Below, piece by piece: positions 6,022-27,394 of a DNA stretch of 29,255 nt. Each line of letters begins with the position of its first letter. The first letter of the stretch is position 1. The translations under genes and the position numbers were made by a program. The stretch covers positions 1-29,255 of IMG/VR virus record IMGVR_UViG_3300031974_005143, one strand, 5' to 3'. The notes below the pieces were generated by a model. The model made no database searches and was not told where the DNA came from. It saw nothing but the letters and a program-made list of their open reading frames with translations. Source of the DNA: a virus.

Positions 6022-6136
6022 GTCGCACTTTAGTTAATACCTTAGACCATGATCAGTCGAGTAAATCTGGCATAGCCCGGATGCGGAGTGTCCGTAAGGC
6101 CTCCTACACTCGACTGGTATAACCAACAAGTGCGAC
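6022..6136. repeat. Interleaved inverted repeats at prophage edge
   Basis: GTCGCACTT at 6022-6030 is the exact reverse complement of AAGTGCGAC at 6128-6136. Inside it, CAGTCGAGT (6054-6062) is complementary to ACTCGACTG (6108-6116). CCCGGATG (6076-6083), inside both, pairs with CATCCGGG (6138-6145), just outside the outer arm, a pseudoknot-like order. The similarity of the outer arms continues imperfectly inward (TAATACC versus GGTATAACC). Confidence 0.7.
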
Positions 6137-6137
6137 A
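6126..6137 (+). repeat. 12-bp direct repeat, copy 1 (downstream of methylase gene)
   Basis: ACAAGTGCGACA occurs here and again, exactly and in the same orientation, at 6998-7009. The two copies bracket the methylase gene. The inner nine bases also appear inverted at 6022-6030. Confidence 0.75.
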
Positions 6138-6151
6138 CATCCGGGTTTTAG

Positions 6152-6943
6152 TTACCCAATATCATAGTTAGCAGTCAACATTTCAATCTTTTTCTTAGAC
6201 CTGTCTGCCGTGGCTCCATTGCCAGCTGATAACATCTTTTTAATAGGTATTGAATGCCAGTCAAACCGACGTTTAAACTCTGCTAAAACCTCACTAGGAT
6301 AACTTGATAACAAGAACCTTCCCTTAATCTGGCTTAGCGTCTCAAGTAATTGCCGGTAATGCTCCTCGGTGTACCCACCATAGTGACCTTGATTGGTGTC
6401 GATGTATGGCGGATCAGCATATATAAATGCATCATCAGCATCACGACTCGTTATAACCTTAGCAGCATCATTGTTTTCTATCTGTGTATACCTGAGCCTT
6501 TCAGATAAGTCTTCTTTAAAAGCCTCTACCTTATTGGCTATAGAGAAGGCTCTTTTATCCCGGTCATATCCCCATGTTCCAATTTTTGAAGCAAATCCCT
6601 GGTTAGTGACTACCCAAAAAGCCCACGCACGAACCGTCCTTTCATCCTGAAATAACCAGGGCATTTGATAAATAGTGAGAGCCCTTTTATATGTATCTCT
6701 GCTGTGAAGGGTCTGCTCTATCTTTTCCCTTAGTTTAAAGAAGTCATGCTTGAGTACCTCATAGAAGTTTGTGATGTTGCCATTAACATCATTGATTACC
6801 TCACATCTGCTGGGCTCTTTAGCCCAAAACACTGCACCCCCTCCAAAAAAGGGCTCAATGTAAATTCGGTGATCAGGAATAAGTGGGAGTATCTCCCGGA
6901 GCATTGATTGTTTGCCACCATAGTAGGTGATGGGTGTTTTCAT
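6152..6943 (-). CDS. dam: DNA adenine (N6) methyltransferase, D12 class
   Basis: Transfers methyl from S-adenosylmethionine to adenine in DNA, likely protecting phage DNA from host restriction. In the 266-residue frame numbered from the GTG at 6952, it has the D12-class signature: TYYGGKQ near residue 10, the AdoMet-binding EPFFGGGAVFW at 33-43 and the catalytic DPPY at 180-183. Length is normal for Dam. I prefer the ATG at 6943, which gives 263 residues starting MKTPITYYGG; the GTG at 6952 is the alternative. Neither has a clear ribosome site. It is the last gene of the leftward cluster, 79 bases from the fibre-like gene, and bracketed by a 12-bp direct repeat, suggesting an accessory cassette. 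Target sequence cannot be read; GATC is only the family default. Confidence 0.9.
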   Translation of the reverse strand: MKTPITYYGGKQSMLREILPLIPDHRIYIEPFFGGGAVFWAKEPSRCEVINDVNGNITNFYEVLKHDFFKLREKIEQTLHSRDTYKRALTIYQMPWLFQDERTVRAWAFWVVTNQGFASKIGTWGYDRDKRAFSIANKVEAFKEDLSERLRYTQIENNDAAKVITSRDADDAFIYADPPYIDTNQGHYGGYTEEHYRQLLETLSQIKGRFLLSSYPSEVLAEFKRRFDWHSIPIKKMLSAGNGATADRSKKKIEMLTANYDIG

Positions 6944-6997
6944 GTGCAGCACTTGATAAAAGTTTGAAGGTTTGAAAATTGTACATTTTGTATATTG

Positions 6998-20021: not shown

Positions 20022-21260
20022 TTAAAACTTCACGTTCTGAGCCTGACCAACCTCAGAATCATTGAACAGTTGCTCAAACTTTGCCGGATCATTTTTCTCC
20101 AGTTCATCCAACTCAGATTGAGAGTAATCGTCCCACTTCTTTTTGTTCTTTGGTTTTCCACCACCTTCAAGGCCAAGCTCGTTTTTCAACGCCTCCAGAA
20201 TGCCCGATGGCCTGGCATTGGTTGGAGTCTTAGTATTCTTGGGTTCTTTGCCGTCACTGCCTTCATCATCATCATCTCCACCGTCGTTGGTTGGAGCCGG
20301 AGTTTCGATTCCGTTTACAAGCTCAAGCGTACCATCGAAATTGTTGGTCACAGACTTCTCTGCGTTTTCCTTCTTGATACCCTTTGTTACACACAGGTTT
20401 ACCAAGGCCTCTTCGCCATACTTAGCTCTATTCTGTAAAGCCTCAATGGCATTCGCAATCTGATCGGCGTTTGCATTTTCAGGCAAGCCAAGTTTTTTAG
20501 CGATTTCTTTCATTTCCGTCTCGTTATTGTTTGAATTTTGATTTGTAGGATTGGTTGGGTTGAGGATGTCCTCTAACTCGTATTCTTCAACCTGATTAAA
20601 AAGAGTAGGCATATCCACGCCCAGGTTCTTAAGTTCGTTTTTAGCACCTGAAGGTGTTCGGTCATCAAGATCGATTATATTCCCTTTCGCAACGATGTTA
20701 TACTTCACGAGCTCTTTACTATTGAGCCATGTTGTATTGCGCATGTTTTGATCTACATCTTCCTTCGAAAGTCCCATTCGCTCAGAAAGTAGTTCTACTA
20801 CATTATCCCGTAGATCTTGGTACTGCTTTTTGCTAGAATCGAAATCTTCCATTCTGGAAATGTTCATTGACCCGGCAATCTCATGGTACATACCCTGAGA
20901 GTTTCTATGACAGTATGTGTTCTCGGGTTTGAATGGAAGGATCAAGGTAAATCCAGCAGATGCTGAAATTGCACCAATGGTCATTTTGATTACTCCGGTA
21001 AATCGCTTGAGTTGATTGATAATCTCATTGGCTTCATAGACACTACCTCCAAAGCAATTGATATAAACATCCGCATCCTCAATCCCGGAATTAATTAGCT
21101 CATCAACGATCTGCGTAAAGCTTGCTGAATCATTTCGCCAAAAGCTAATAGATCCTATAATCTTGATAAATGCTTTTCCAGCTTTGTTCTCAATATGAAA
21201 GTGCTTAAATGCCATATTTCCCATTTCGGTCAGGCCAAAAGTGAGGTGCATTAAACCCAT
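20022..21260 (-). CDS. Prohead protease (ClpP-like) with C-terminal scaffold domain
   Basis: A 412-residue protein. The N-terminal 200 residues form a ClpP-like serine protease: INCFGGSVYEANEI near 68-80, the catalytic SAS at 99-101, and MYHEIAGSM with His126. Residues after 250 are acidic and coiled, with a DDDDEGSD linker and a basic-polar C-terminus (PKNKKKWDDYSQSELDELEKND), typical of a fused scaffold that is cleaved during maturation. The ATG at 21260 is the longest option; ATGs at 21224 (MGNMAFKHFH) or 21215 (MAFKHFH) better match the family start. It is the first leftward gene after the divergent control region. Confidence 0.82.
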   Translation of the reverse strand: MGLMHLTFGLTEMGNMAFKHFHIENKAGKAFIKIIGSISFWRNDSASFTQIVDELINSGIEDADVYINCFGGSVYEANEIINQLKRFTGVIKMTIGAISASAGFTLILPFKPENTYCHRNSQGMYHEIAGSMNISRMEDFDSSKKQYQDLRDNVVELLSERMGLSKEDVDQNMRNTTWLNSKELVKYNIVAKGNIIDLDDRTPSGAKNELKNLGVDMPTLFNQVEEYELEDILNPTNPTNQNSNNNETEMKEIAKKLGLPENANADQIANAIEALQNRAKYGEEALVNLCVTKGIKKENAEKSVTNNFDGTLELVNGIETPAPTNDGGDDDDEGSDGKEPKNTKTPTNARPSGILEALKNELGLEGGGKPKNKKKWDDYSQSELDELEKNDPAKFEQLFNDSEVGQAQNVKF

Positions 21261-23525: not shown

Positions 23526-23788
23526 TCGAGTTTGTAGACCATAAAACCAACGAGCAAATTCACTTGATTAATTACGAAAGCGAATACAGACATCTTCCAA
23601 GGGTAGATGATGAAGTGTTTTTCCTTCACGAGTCTGGTAAATATCAAAATTGTATCGTGACAAGAGTGGAGCATATAATCTGTGATGGAGAGCAAGGGTG
23701 GCCTATGATTTATGTCAGACCAAGAAAGAAGTCAATTATTCATTTCTCACTTTCCATTTTCAACCTTCAATTATCTGTTAATATATGA
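23522..23788 (+). CDS. Small unrecognised phage protein
   Basis: An 88-residue protein coupled on both sides by four-base overlaps (terminase above, Gp36-like below). The first 70 residues look like a beta-barrel of the SH3/Tudor kind (LPRVDDEVFFLHESGKYQNCIVTRVEH...GWPMIYVRPRKK). The last 18 residues come from a T/C-rich low-complexity stretch (tttccattttcaaccttcaat) resembling Bacteroidota intergenic DNA, suggesting a recently lost stop codon. I do not recognise a family or function. Confidence 0.55.
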   Translation: MIEFVDHKTNEQIHLINYESEYRHLPRVDDEVFFLHESGKYQNCIVTRVEHIICDGEQGWPMIYVRPRKKSIIHFSLSIFNLQLSVNI

Positions 23789-24201
23789 GCACATTCATAA
23801 CCAAACCGGACTATTACGTTGGCAAGCGTCAAGCGGTCATCGATCAACTGACAGATGATAACGACAGCATATTGGACACTGCTGAAGAGGATGCTATTGA
23901 CCTGGTGAAGAAGAAGCTTCACCACTATGATGTTGAAGCCATCTTTAGCCAGACTGATGGTGACCGTGACAAAACGGTACTGAGATGGTGTAAGTACATC
24001 GTGCTTTACTTCATCTACGAACGTGCAGATGATTCCTTCATTCCCGAATCAGTGATCAAGAATTACGATGACACCATGGAGTCATTGGACAAGATTTCGC
24101 AGGGACGAGAGCAGATAGATCTTCCCCGGCTTGAAGACAGTGAATCTGTGCCATCTACCAAATTTCAATACGGAGGAAGAACCCCAAGGTCAACCTTCTG
24201 A
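23785..24201 (+). CDS. Head-tail connector protein, Mu Gp36/DUF1320-like
   Basis: A 138-residue protein. The N-terminus MSTFITKPDYYVGKRQAVIDQLTDDN followed by helices with AEEDAIDLVKKKLHHYDVEAIF and RWCKYIVLYFIYERADDSFIPE matches the Gp36 (DUF1320) pattern in which D, Y and ER positions are conserved. These proteins form a ring below the portal. In Mu it lies just after the F-like head genes; here it precedes the portal, a common rearrangement in Bacteroidota phages. It is separated from the portal gene by 33 bases. Confidence 0.72.
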   Translation: MSTFITKPDYYVGKRQAVIDQLTDDNDSILDTAEEDAIDLVKKKLHHYDVEAIFSQTDGDRDKTVLRWCKYIVLYFIYERADDSFIPESVIKNYDDTMESLDKISQGREQIDLPRLEDSESVPSTKFQYGGRTPRSTF

Positions 24202-24234: not shown

Positions 24235-26841
24235 ATGAGCGGCTCAATCATATCCAAACTACGGAACATGCTTCCAACATGGAAGCCCTTTCAGGTCAGC
24301 GAAAAACTAGTAGACCCCAACAACACTAAAAAGAAGCGGGTCAGCTACCAAATAAAAACCAATAGACGACTTAGGTTCGATGTAGAGCAGGACGATCTGA
24401 AGACGGCACTCATGCACGCCCTTGACGAGATAGATCCCCGACGGGAAATGCTACTCGAAGTGTACCGGGAAGCCAAGAGGGATTTACGACTTCTGGCACA
24501 GTGTCAAAACGGAATTGATGACGTGATACAAGCTGGCTGGGGTTGGTTCAACGATGAGACTGGAGAGCTAAATGAAGACGTTACCAAGCTATTCCAAAAG
24601 CAGTGGTTTGAAAAGGCGATGACAGTCAAGCTCTGGGAAGAGTTTGAAGGCTACAAGCTATTGGAGTTGGGGCAAATGATCCTAACCGAGAATGGTTGGG
24701 AGTTCAAAAAGGTGAAAGAGTTCCCAATGGAAAACGTTCTACCAGAAAGAGGGCTGTTGATCGCACACCCACAAGCTGCCAATGGCGTGCCTTACCGGCC
24801 AGAGGATTACCCCGACGATAAAGACAAGCAAAGGCTTGCTGAGGCCTTTAGTGAATGGCTGGTAGAATGCGGAGATCCGGAAAGTCTCGGACTGTTTGCT
24901 GTAGCAGCTAAAAACAGCATCTACAAGAAGTGGGGACTTGGGGATTGGTGTAGAAGCTCCGAAAAATGGATTGACCCATTCCTTGTCATAAGATCAGGCA
25001 CAGATGATCAAACAGAGAATGACAAAAAAGCCAAAATGGCCGGTGAATTTGGCAATAACAGTTGGGCGATTTTGGATGATCAGGACGAGATAGATCTTGT
25101 GGAACGCAAAAACGCCAACGGTTATACCATCACTAAAGATTTGCTCGATTACCTTGATACAGAAAACGCCATAGGGATCAACGGACAATCAGCCACTGCA
25201 AATGATCAAGCATGGTCAGGTTCAAGCGAAGTACAAGAGCGTACCCAAATCAAGCGATCCCGAAGAAGATTGAGACATCTTATGTATTGGGTCAACGAAA
25301 CACTTAAACCCAAATTAATGGCTGTAAACGGAGGCGATACAGCCTATAAGGTCATTGAAGGTCATAGTTGGAAACCTCTATCACTCCTGGAAGAGGATGA
25401 TGCCGAATCAACAGATCCTGATCAAAGCGACGATCCAAAGGAAAACGGAAACCCAAAAAACAAATCAAAGGGCAAGCGGGCTGGGGGTACCGCCGTGGGA
25501 AAGTCGAACGGGTTAGGGTATCATATTGAAATCTCTAACCTCTATGCTTTTGACACTCATGGTCATATCGATCACCGTCCCTACAATAGTTCGACTCTTG
25601 AAAGGCTGGCTGAAAAGATGGCCGAAAAGGTACAGGCTCAGGTCATCAAGCCCGGTCAGGTAGATAATAATCTAACCGAAGCGCAGGCAAAGGAATTATT
25701 GACCGCCCTGCGCGGAGGATACGAAAAAACCCTTAAATCCGTGGTGTTCGCTTCTCCTGAGCATCGGATAAAAGTGCAGCTAGAGCATAACATATATGTG
25801 ATGGCTGCATTCAAGAACCATCAGAATGTATTGGACATTCATGATCTGTTATTGGATAGTGAGGGTAAAATCAAATCAAAGAGCCAGTTCCTGAAGGATG
25901 TCCAAGGGGTCAACAAAGACTACAACGTACATTGGGCAGCTACCGAATGGAGGCTTGCCAGGGGACAGGCTCAAATGGCCGATAAATACCTGTTGTACAA
26001 AGATCGAGGTGGATCATTCGTATACCAATCAATGAATGATGGACATGTGCGCCCCGAGCATGAAAAGCTTCACGGCCTTACCGCCCCAGTGGATCATCCA
26101 ATTTGGGATCAGATCCTGCCGAAAAACGGATATGGGTGTAGATGCTTCTTTAGATGGATCAGCAAGGTGATCACCAACATCAGTAAAGCCGCTGAGGAAT
26201 TCGCAGATAACCTACCAGCCATATGGAAAAACAATGCTGGGAAATCTGGTCGGGTATTCAGCGAGGATCATCCATACTTTGAGGTAGCAAAAAAGTATGT
26301 AGAGAAAGCTCAGAAGCTTTTCGGGTTCAAACCTCCGGTTAATCTGGAGCGGTTCAATCATAACCTTGCACTGTATGAAACCCTGAAAGATTCAAAGGAT
26401 CATGAGTTGTTAAGCGCAGTACTGGACACCGGAGGTTTTTTGTTCCGGCATAAGAATTTTGACAAAAAGGACTACTTCCTCAATAAGAAGGCAGCAGATC
26501 GACTCGCTAAAAATGGTTATGCTGTGGAGATCCGGGAGCATGTAAGCACGGAAGGTATTCCTAATCCAGAGCTGACGATATCAGGTACAATAAGCGATCT
26601 GAAGACTCCCGAGAAAATCGGGGGCATCAAGTCGGCTTTCTCTAATGCCAAAAAACAAGGCATTGATACCGTAGTGGTCAAACTGAATAACGGATGGGAT
26701 GTAGAGGCCATTAGGAAAAAAGTGGATGATGGCTTTCATTTCAACGACACCATTGATATGGTTTACCTCCTATTTAAAGGGGAAGTAATAGAGATTACAA
26801 GAATGGAGTGGTTGGATGGTCAGCTGTATAAAATAAAATAA
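24235..26841 (+). CDS. Portal (Gp29/DUF935-like) + MuF head protein + CdiA-type tRNase-like C-terminal domain, one polypeptide
   Basis: An 868-residue triple fusion. Residues 1-385 are a DUF935/Mu gp29-like portal (DEIDPRREMLLEVYREAKRD, QKQWFEKAM, NAIGINGQSATANDQAWSGS). A low-complexity charged linker (385-425) follows. Residues 425-690 are a MuF/gp30-like head morphogenesis domain with AATEWRLARGQAQ near 567 and the DGHVRPEHEKLHG...NGYGCRCFFRW signature at 600-640. Residues 700-868 resemble the CdiA C-terminal tRNA nuclease domain: DRLAKNGYAVEIREH, then NPELTISGTISDLKTP (PD-(D/E)xK-like), AKKQGIDTVVVKLNN, and VYLLFKGEVIEITR. In Mu these parts are separate or lack the toxin. No antitoxin gene is evident beside it. 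Confidence 0.85.
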   Translation: MSGSIISKLRNMLPTWKPFQVSEKLVDPNNTKKKRVSYQIKTNRRLRFDVEQDDLKTALMHALDEIDPRREMLLEVYREAKRDLRLLAQCQNGIDDVIQAGWGWFNDETGELNEDVTKLFQKQWFEKAMTVKLWEEFEGYKLLELGQMILTENGWEFKKVKEFPMENVLPERGLLIAHPQAANGVPYRPEDYPDDKDKQRLAEAFSEWLVECGDPESLGLFAVAAKNSIYKKWGLGDWCRSSEKWIDPFLVIRSGTDDQTENDKKAKMAGEFGNNSWAILDDQDEIDLVERKNANGYTITKDLLDYLDTENAIGINGQSATANDQAWSGSSEVQERTQIKRSRRRLRHLMYWVNETLKPKLMAVNGGDTAYKVIEGHSWKPLSLLEEDDAESTDPDQSDDPKENGNPKNKSKGKRAGGTAVGKSNGLGYHIEISNLYAFDTHGHIDHRPYNSSTLERLAEKMAEKVQAQVIKPGQVDNNLTEAQAKELLTALRGGYEKTLKSVVFASPEHRIKVQLEHNIYVMAAFKNHQNVLDIHDLLLDSEGKIKSKSQFLKDVQGVNKDYNVHWAATEWRLARGQAQMADKYLLYKDRGGSFVYQSMNDGHVRPEHEKLHGLTAPVDHPIWDQILPKNGYGCRCFFRWISKVITNISKAAEEFADNLPAIWKNNAGKSGRVFSEDHPYFEVAKKYVEKAQKLFGFKPPVNLERFNHNLALYETLKDSKDHELLSAVLDTGGFLFRHKNFDKKDYFLNKKAADRLAKNGYAVEIREHVSTEGIPNPELTISGTISDLKTPEKIGGIKSAFSNAKKQGIDTVVVKLNNGWDVEAIRKKVDDGFHFNDTIDMVYLLFKGEVIEITRMEWLDGQLYKIK

Positions 26842-26873
26842 GCCCGAACCTCGCTTAGCGTTGGGTTGGGCTT
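26840..26873 (-). terminator. Hairpin at portal gene end, better as leftward terminator
   Basis: AAGCCC (26840-26845) pairs with GGGCTT (26868-26873), extended inward by G/T, A/T and C/G pairs with one mismatch. Rightward it has no T tract. Leftward it is followed by ATTTTATTTTAT, a better intrinsic terminator. It overlaps the stop codon of the portal fusion (26839-26841). Confidence 0.5.
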
Positions 26874-26917: not shown

Positions 26918-27394
26918 ATGTTTAGAAACAAGCTAACCGGCAAATCACTAGCCCAGGACATGCACCAGGTGGCCAGGGATTTGGACAAGCTGATAAGCAA
27001 GGAGCTGCCGGAGGAAACCGAAAGCAAACTTGGGGAAATGGTGTCCAACTCATTCAGAAACGAACGTTATTCAGGAAACCAAAAATCCAAAAAATGGCAA
27101 CACCGAAAAGGACAGAAGAAAGTCAGAAAGCGTGACCGTAAGAATATCCTGGTGGATGAGGGCATTTTAGCCGGATCGTTCGAGACCTTTAGTCGTAAAG
27201 GTGAATCCGGCATATCAACCCCAGTACCATACGCTCCCGTTCACAACGAAGGTCTCAAGGCTGGAAAAGGCAAAGGCTTCAAAATGCCACAGCGACAGAT
27301 TATGCCAAAACCTGGTGAGCAAAGCCCCGTACTGACCAAGCATGTATTTAAGTTTCTGGACAAAAAGGGAGATGAAATATTCAACAAACGTTAA
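26918..27394 (+). CDS. Virion morphogenesis / tail completion protein (Mu gpG / P2 gpS-like)
   Basis: A 158-residue basic protein. The pattern RDLDKLISKELPEETESKLGEMVSNSFRNERYSGN, KWQHRKGQKKVRKRDRKNILVDEGILAGSF, VPYAPVHNEGLKAGKGKGFKMPQRQIM matches the Phage_tail_S/virion morphogenesis family, with the conserved YA.vHn.G...G...MPqRqi stretch. It functions at the head-tail joint. It follows a hairpin after the portal fusion, with AGGAG just before the ATG. Length is normal for the family. Confidence 0.8.
   Translation: MFRNKLTGKSLAQDMHQVARDLDKLISKELPEETESKLGEMVSNSFRNERYSGNQKSKKWQHRKGQKKVRKRDRKNILVDEGILAGSFETFSRKGESGISTPVPYAPVHNEGLKAGKGKGFKMPQRQIMPKPGEQSPVLTKHVFKFLDKKGDEIFNKR

Follow-up and report, generated by a model that had tools for sequence, protein, structure and literature searches.

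A virus record of 29,255 bases, a single metagenomic record referred to below as the window, contains a gene in which a phage portal, a MuF head protein and a domain resembling a bacterial nuclease toxin appear to form one chain. We asked whether this fusion is genuine, which nuclease it carries, whether relatives share it, and what a phage might do with such an enzyme when no immunity gene accompanies it.

Portal, MuF and nuclease domains in a single reading frame

The ORF at 24235–26841 starts with ATG and runs through 868 codons without an internal stop, so that the fusion proposed in the original prediction is intact in the assembly, with its Pfam domains in frame. Features of the ORF and its neighbourhood are as follows.

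20022–21260, minus strand: ClpP-type head maturation protease (PF00574, E 7e-15; phrog_94)
23785–24201, plus strand: Mu Gp36-like head-tail adaptor, directly 5' of the fusion ORF (PF07030, E 3e-9)
24235–26841, plus strand: portal–MuF–nuclease fusion ORF, 868 aa (ORF listing and Pfam)
24454–25350, plus strand: Portal_Mu domain, Mu gp29-like portal, aa 74–372 (PF06074, E 5e-36)
25351–25614, plus strand: Asp/Lys/Pro-rich portal-to-MuF linker; longest A run, A6, at 25455–25460
25687–26304, plus strand: MuF region, SPP1 gp7/Mu gp30-like, aa 485–690 (PF04233, TIGR01641)
26452–26838, plus strand: predicted C-terminal PD-(D/E)XK nuclease domain, CdiA_C/Bp1026b CdiA-CT-like, aa 740–868
26470–26658, plus strand: predicted catalytic and conserved residues D746, H769, N777-P778-E779, D788-L-K790 and Q808 (alignments A4 and A5)
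26918–27394, plus strand: gpG-like tail completion/Neck1 protein (Phage_tail_S), next gene 3' (PF05069, E 5e-7; phrog_26)

The MuF region scored above the TIGR01641 cut-off (43.1 versus 39.65 bits), with its Pfam core (Phage_Mu_F, PF04233) at aa 553–638 (E 1e-11). Because both flanking domains share one frame and no homopolymer within the ORF exceeds six bases, nothing points to a frameshift error. The Gp36-like adaptor is preceded by a gpP-like small terminase gene and by a 560-aa gene located where the large terminase would be expected; judged by these similarities, the module around the fusion is Mu-like. Should the fusion be cut, the ClpP-type protease would be a candidate processing enzyme.

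Elsewhere in the window, the Kelch/cadherin protein encoded at 7–2493 has a Por_Secre_tail domain of type IX secretion, which suggests that the host belongs to the Bacteroidota and that the left end of the contig may hold host DNA. We take the virus to be a phage of Bacteroidota-like bacteria. A D12-class N6-adenine DNA methyltransferase is encoded at 6152–6952 (minus strand), inside the phage tail region. Immediately 3' of the fusion stop codon, a stem-loop (26842–26872; −18 kcal/mol, z −1.75), which lacks a T run, is a possible attenuator separating the fusion from the gpG-like gene.

A predicted PD-(D/E)XK nuclease of the CdiA_C kind

A CdiA-type domain had been proposed for residues 700–868, with the motifs NPELTISGTISDLKTP and AKKQGIDTVVVKL, both of which we found. 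The family assignment held up in profile and fold comparisons, and the boundary had to be moved: AlphaFold pLDDT was below 60 ahead of about aa 739 and mostly above 90 beyond, so that the domain is better bounded at about 740–868. The CdiA_C profile PF18451 matched aa 777–837 of the whole protein with E 0.008 and the C-terminal part alone with E 0.0018, the latter at 18.9 bits, below the gathering cut-off of 26.6 bits; the same profile matched 15 of 20 relatives with the same C-terminal domain, at best with E 1.9e-13. A profile search of PDB sequences returned a single entry, CdiA-CT of Burkholderia pseudomallei 1026b (4g6v). This was also the best Foldseek match of the predicted structure (E 1.2e-5, prob 1.00), with no other match below 0.001, and it headed the PDB chains in VIA-align (Z 10.9 over 121 residues). 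Next among PD-(D/E)XK nucleases in VIA-align was the restriction enzyme PaqCI at Z 6.7, in the range below about 8 that is frequent by chance, followed further down by other restriction enzymes and then by Holliday resolvases of the same superfamily. The structure prediction called for in the original prediction thus yielded a model whose PD-(D/E)XK nuclease fold most resembles that of CdiA-CT Bp1026b. Two related PD-(D/E)XK CdiA toxins, E479 and TA271, were absent among the fold matches listed, which excludes nothing.

In an alignment of 20 sequences (A5; 21–28% identity to the window), D746, H769, N777 and Q808 were invariant and P778, E779, D788 and K790 nearly so (window numbering). The active site of CdiA-CT Bp1026b comprises E187, D214, D223 and K242 (reviewed in PMC9086364); E779 and D788 align with D214 and D223, with a spacing of nine in both proteins, and K790 occupies the canonical DxK place. 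The two domains therefore share fold and NP(D/E)...D motif at 22% identity over 121 residues, and they differ in that the Bp1026b toxin (PDB 4G6V, PF18451) is delivered by the CdiA adhesin, has a CdiI immunity protein and uses K242 as its catalytic lysine. Given this difference in the lysine, the substrate may differ from that of Bp1026b. PD-(D/E)XK CdiA toxins include both tRNases and DNases (PMC9086364), so that, of the 'tRNase-like toxin' put forward originally, the CdiA_C-type nuclease stands, with tRNase as one possibility. On profile, model and alignment evidence, we conclude that the C-terminal domain is predicted to be a PD-(D/E)XK nuclease of the CdiA_C kind with its catalytic motif intact. 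In three pairs of relatives pN/pS of the nuclease domain was ~0.2–0.3, indicating purifying selection.

Other identities and searches yielded little. Lon_C, a Pfam match of similar E-value, was rejected, being found in 1 of the 20 members and lacking fold support; Pfam gave no PBECR match anywhere in the fusion protein, and NCBIfam none to the C-terminal domain. Scanning viral contigs with the window's C-terminal domain, its whole protein and the C-terminal domain of one relative (L013) added no new relatives, and tblastn of the C-terminal domain found, among phages, only the record of relative L002, plus a chance-level plasmid match.

The fusion recurs in Bacteroidota phages

Bacterial and archaeal genomes scanned for portal motifs provided 19 loci, all from Bacteroidota by title, 18 of which carry the same C-terminal domain. 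Portal, MuF and nuclease form one ORF of 831–876 aa in L002, L013, L017–L023, L027, L028, L032 and L034, whereas in Flavobacteriia portal and MuF–nuclease occupy separate ORFs. On a tree of portal plus MuF the genes must have switched between fused and split four times or more, with thirteen Bacteroidales-type rows in one supported fused group and the window on a long separate branch. The C-terminal domain can be exchanged between close relatives, as in L016 and L002, which have closely similar portals and unrelated C-termini; L060 carries PBECR-like sequence in its place, L004 PBECR2, L007 a glutamine deamidase, and L006 also another domain.

These data, which include isolate genomes, establish by sequence comparison that the portal–MuF–nuclease fusion is real and recurrent in Bacteroidota phages and prophages rather than unique. 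The earlier suggestion that joining an effector to the portal is unusual was not borne out, since PBECR fused to MuF and portal was described by Iyer et al. (2017; PMC5512222) and the CdiA_C version occurs in many Bacteroidota loci. Porphyromonas gingivalis phages encode such an 852-aa Portal_Mu+MuF+PBECR2 protein (annotated 'portal' in BK068090), which, like that of the window, places portal, MuF and nuclease in one chain in a Mu-like phage of Bacteroidota; the two are ~22% identical over portal and MuF, and their nucleases belong to different folds, BECR there and PD-(D/E)XK (CdiA_C) here. The new part is thus the PD-(D/E)XK CdiA_C version of a fusion already known in outline.

The packaging modules of temperate phages also encode MuF polymorphic toxins (Jamet et al., 2017; PMC5576092) and Bacteroides Bxa (PMC11699363), which share with the window's protein a MuF domain ahead of a C-terminal effector. 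There, portal and MuF are separate and the gene is usually trailed by a small immunity ORF; in the window MuF is fused to the portal and no such ORF comes next.

Two further arrangements were observed. A Flavobacterium phage MuF protein (L005, 5112–6662), for which Pfam reports MuF only, has a C-terminal HEFGH-type metallopeptidase-like motif. In L041, L042 and L044, a different Mu-like module contains MuF joined to a CdiA_C-like C-terminus; structural-looking genes again come next, and no small ORF that would fit an immunity protein in size stands immediately after.

An A tract at the portal/MuF joint of relatives suggests programmed slippage

In about 29 related phages a run of A9–A11 lies exactly at the portal/MuF joint (L002, L003, L013, L015–L025, L027–L034, L047, L048, L059–L062, L072 and L074), and all 20 runs of at least ten A or T in 252 kb of 23 loci sit at this joint. 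Adding or removing one A in 14 fused loci (A10 or A11) gives a portal-only protein of 417–446 aa. Conversely, one added A turns the split genes of L003, L025, L029, L030, L031 and L015 (A9) into fusions of 847–901 aa, and one A removed does the same in split L024 (A11). Loci found later behaved alike, with +1 A giving 794–859 aa in split L047, L048, L072 and L074, and a one-A change giving 397–446 aa in fused L059–L062. In the +1 A frame a stop follows within two codons in 13 of the 14 fused loci against a background of 14–32% (P 6e-8, a value that overstates the strength because the loci are related and non-independent). Tract length is kept while its codon phase varies between 0, 1 and 2, which favours a nucleotide-level signal; a structural role of the Lys run, considered as an alternative, is disfavoured since ten A's are kept despite the changing phase.

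L016 (A10 at 6136–6145, fused, 901 aa) and L015 (A9 at 6310–6318, split, 446+455 aa) are otherwise identical over 2.7 kb, a difference that may stem from phase variation, sequencing slippage or error, or a genuine switch of register. Not every member of the clade has the tract, as L026 has A7 only. Nearly all split loci, even those with no long A run, encode MuF in frame −1 with respect to the portal, for which overlapping start and stop codons or other shift sites may be the reason.

The pattern suggests that the tract is a programmed slippage site making both portal-only and portal–MuF–nuclease forms in relatives, whose rings would then probably mix plain and extended portals. We consider it rather probable that slippage on A9–A11, transcriptional or −1 ribosomal, yields two products and places the nuclease on part of the ring only, and that the window has lost the tract, leaving its fusion hard-wired. 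A slippage review (PMC5009743) describes a comparable design in dnaX (A9/T9 in Thermus thermophilus, A_AAA_AAG in Escherichia coli), where slippage makes a short and a long product from one gene and one base change can swap roles. The relatives resemble dnaX in their A9–A10 tract and in having stop codons near in both other frames. Unlike in dnaX, the slippage predicted here by computation concerns a phage portal and its MuF–effector extension, and involves a tract that the window lacks. We found no report of portal/MuF slippage in the open-access literature searched, which is weak evidence of novelty, and the word 'portal' does not occur in the part of the review that was searched.

The joint of the window itself has no A9–A11 tract. 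Its longest A run, A6, reads A_AAA_AAC, a site rated in the same review as much less prone to shifting than A_AAA_AAG (PMC5009743), and no stimulatory RNA fold was found 3' of it (z −0.84). With the A tract absent, the fusion looks hard-wired in the window.

No immunity gene adjoins the fusion

Directly 3' of the window's fusion there is no immunity ORF: the gpG-like gene follows after 76 bases, with no ORF between. Twenty-one of 23 loci of the lineage proceed straight to the next structural gene (short ORFs overlapping the gpG start in a few loci were not counted). The two that do not are L003, which has a pair of tiny ORFs, and L033, where the gap measures 300 bases; additional loci that came out of the phylum survey share the arrangement of the majority. 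Nor did any window gene match an immunity family in non-exhaustive Pfam scans. The original remark that no immunity gene is evident can therefore be extended, in that its absence is, from gene order, a property of the whole lineage. A small immunity ORF lies directly 3' in 89% of MuF toxins (PMC5576092). Without a neighbouring immunity gene, the fusion is not a classical toxin–immunity pair, and this absence together with wide conservation of the domain is atypical for a polymorphic toxin.

Discussion

Three domains share one frame, the last with a nuclease fold and motif; relatives show purifying selection and recurrent fusion, and no immunity gene is adjacent. How such a protein might act is a further matter, and the account we lean towards is that of a nuclease effector carried in the virion, a portal subunit extended by MuF and a CdiA_C nuclease that enters along with the DNA, with catalysis and delivery inferred. 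The portal part would build the portal ring, each subunit bearing a MuF–nuclease extension unless the phage protease (20022–21260) cuts it. In portal structures the C-terminal crown points toward the head interior. The extension would accordingly be expected inside the head, beside the packaged DNA, and this phage could carry twelve nuclease copies per capsid if the chain stays uncut. The nuclease might enter the recipient cell at infection or be released at lysis, and would then cut nucleic acid in the recipient, most plausibly RNA such as tRNA. A 12-subunit ring whose extensions stay uncut could not be ejected whole, which counts against this account; for this reason cleavage, release at lysis or action within the head at ejection must be assumed. 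Also against it stand the window's CdiA_C score below the cut-off, the catalytic lysine that differs from K242 of Bp1026b, and the unusual pairing of a widely conserved domain with missing immunity. The producer would escape harm through late synthesis and sequestration of the protein rather than through an immunity protein; the missing immunity gene and purifying selection suggest either this or a target that matters only in the next host.

The most serious competitor, less probable in our judgement and yet a real contender, holds that the nuclease does housekeeping work for its own phage, for instance on host DNA or RNA in the infected cell or in packaging or ejection, and is not a weapon against other cells. 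A housekeeping role would explain both the missing immunity gene in 21 of 23 loci and the steady inheritance of the domain, which 18 of 19 portal-motif loci keep, a constancy not seen in toxins that swap freely; the purifying selection between closely related pairs and a canonical DxK motif as in PD-(D/E)XK DNases (PMC9086364) agree with it as well. However, sister phages do swap the domain (L016, L060, L004 and L007), and its nearest solved relative is a tRNase toxin. The domain could instead be a decayed nuclease retained for structure or RNA binding, a role that Iyer et al. suggested for Mu gp30, whose PBECR domain is inactive (PMC5512222); this seems doubtful, since all predicted catalytic residues are kept in the window and in nearly all relatives.

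We think it equally doubtful that the protein is a classical MuF polymorphic toxin with its immunity protein encoded elsewhere in the phage or host genome. MuF toxins are mostly paired with an immunity ORF (PMC5576092) and unnamed small genes do occur further along the window, but no small ORF lies behind the gene in the window or in 21 of 23 relatives, and the non-exhaustive Pfam scans tied no window gene to an immunity family. That the fusion is an artefact of assembly or sequencing in which a stop was removed is very improbable: although the window is a single metagenomic record, its domains share a frame free of long homopolymers, and the same architecture appears in many independent records, including isolate genomes and the P. 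gingivalis phages.

Under the delivered-effector account that we favour, a toxin-type nuclease would be fixed to the DNA-exit ring of a phage lineage that is distributed over the Bacteroidota and lacks an immunity gene. Its wider interest lies in the missing immunity and in the putative slippage switch of the relatives. The locus allows a direct test of whether the MuF effectors carried in virions serve as weapons, as takeover enzymes or as packaging parts. If the A10 tract is a true slippage site, a phage portal would exist in two isoforms from one gene; fused and split database annotations would then represent the same switch in different register, and an annotation rule would follow for many portal/MuF genes now recorded as one or the other.
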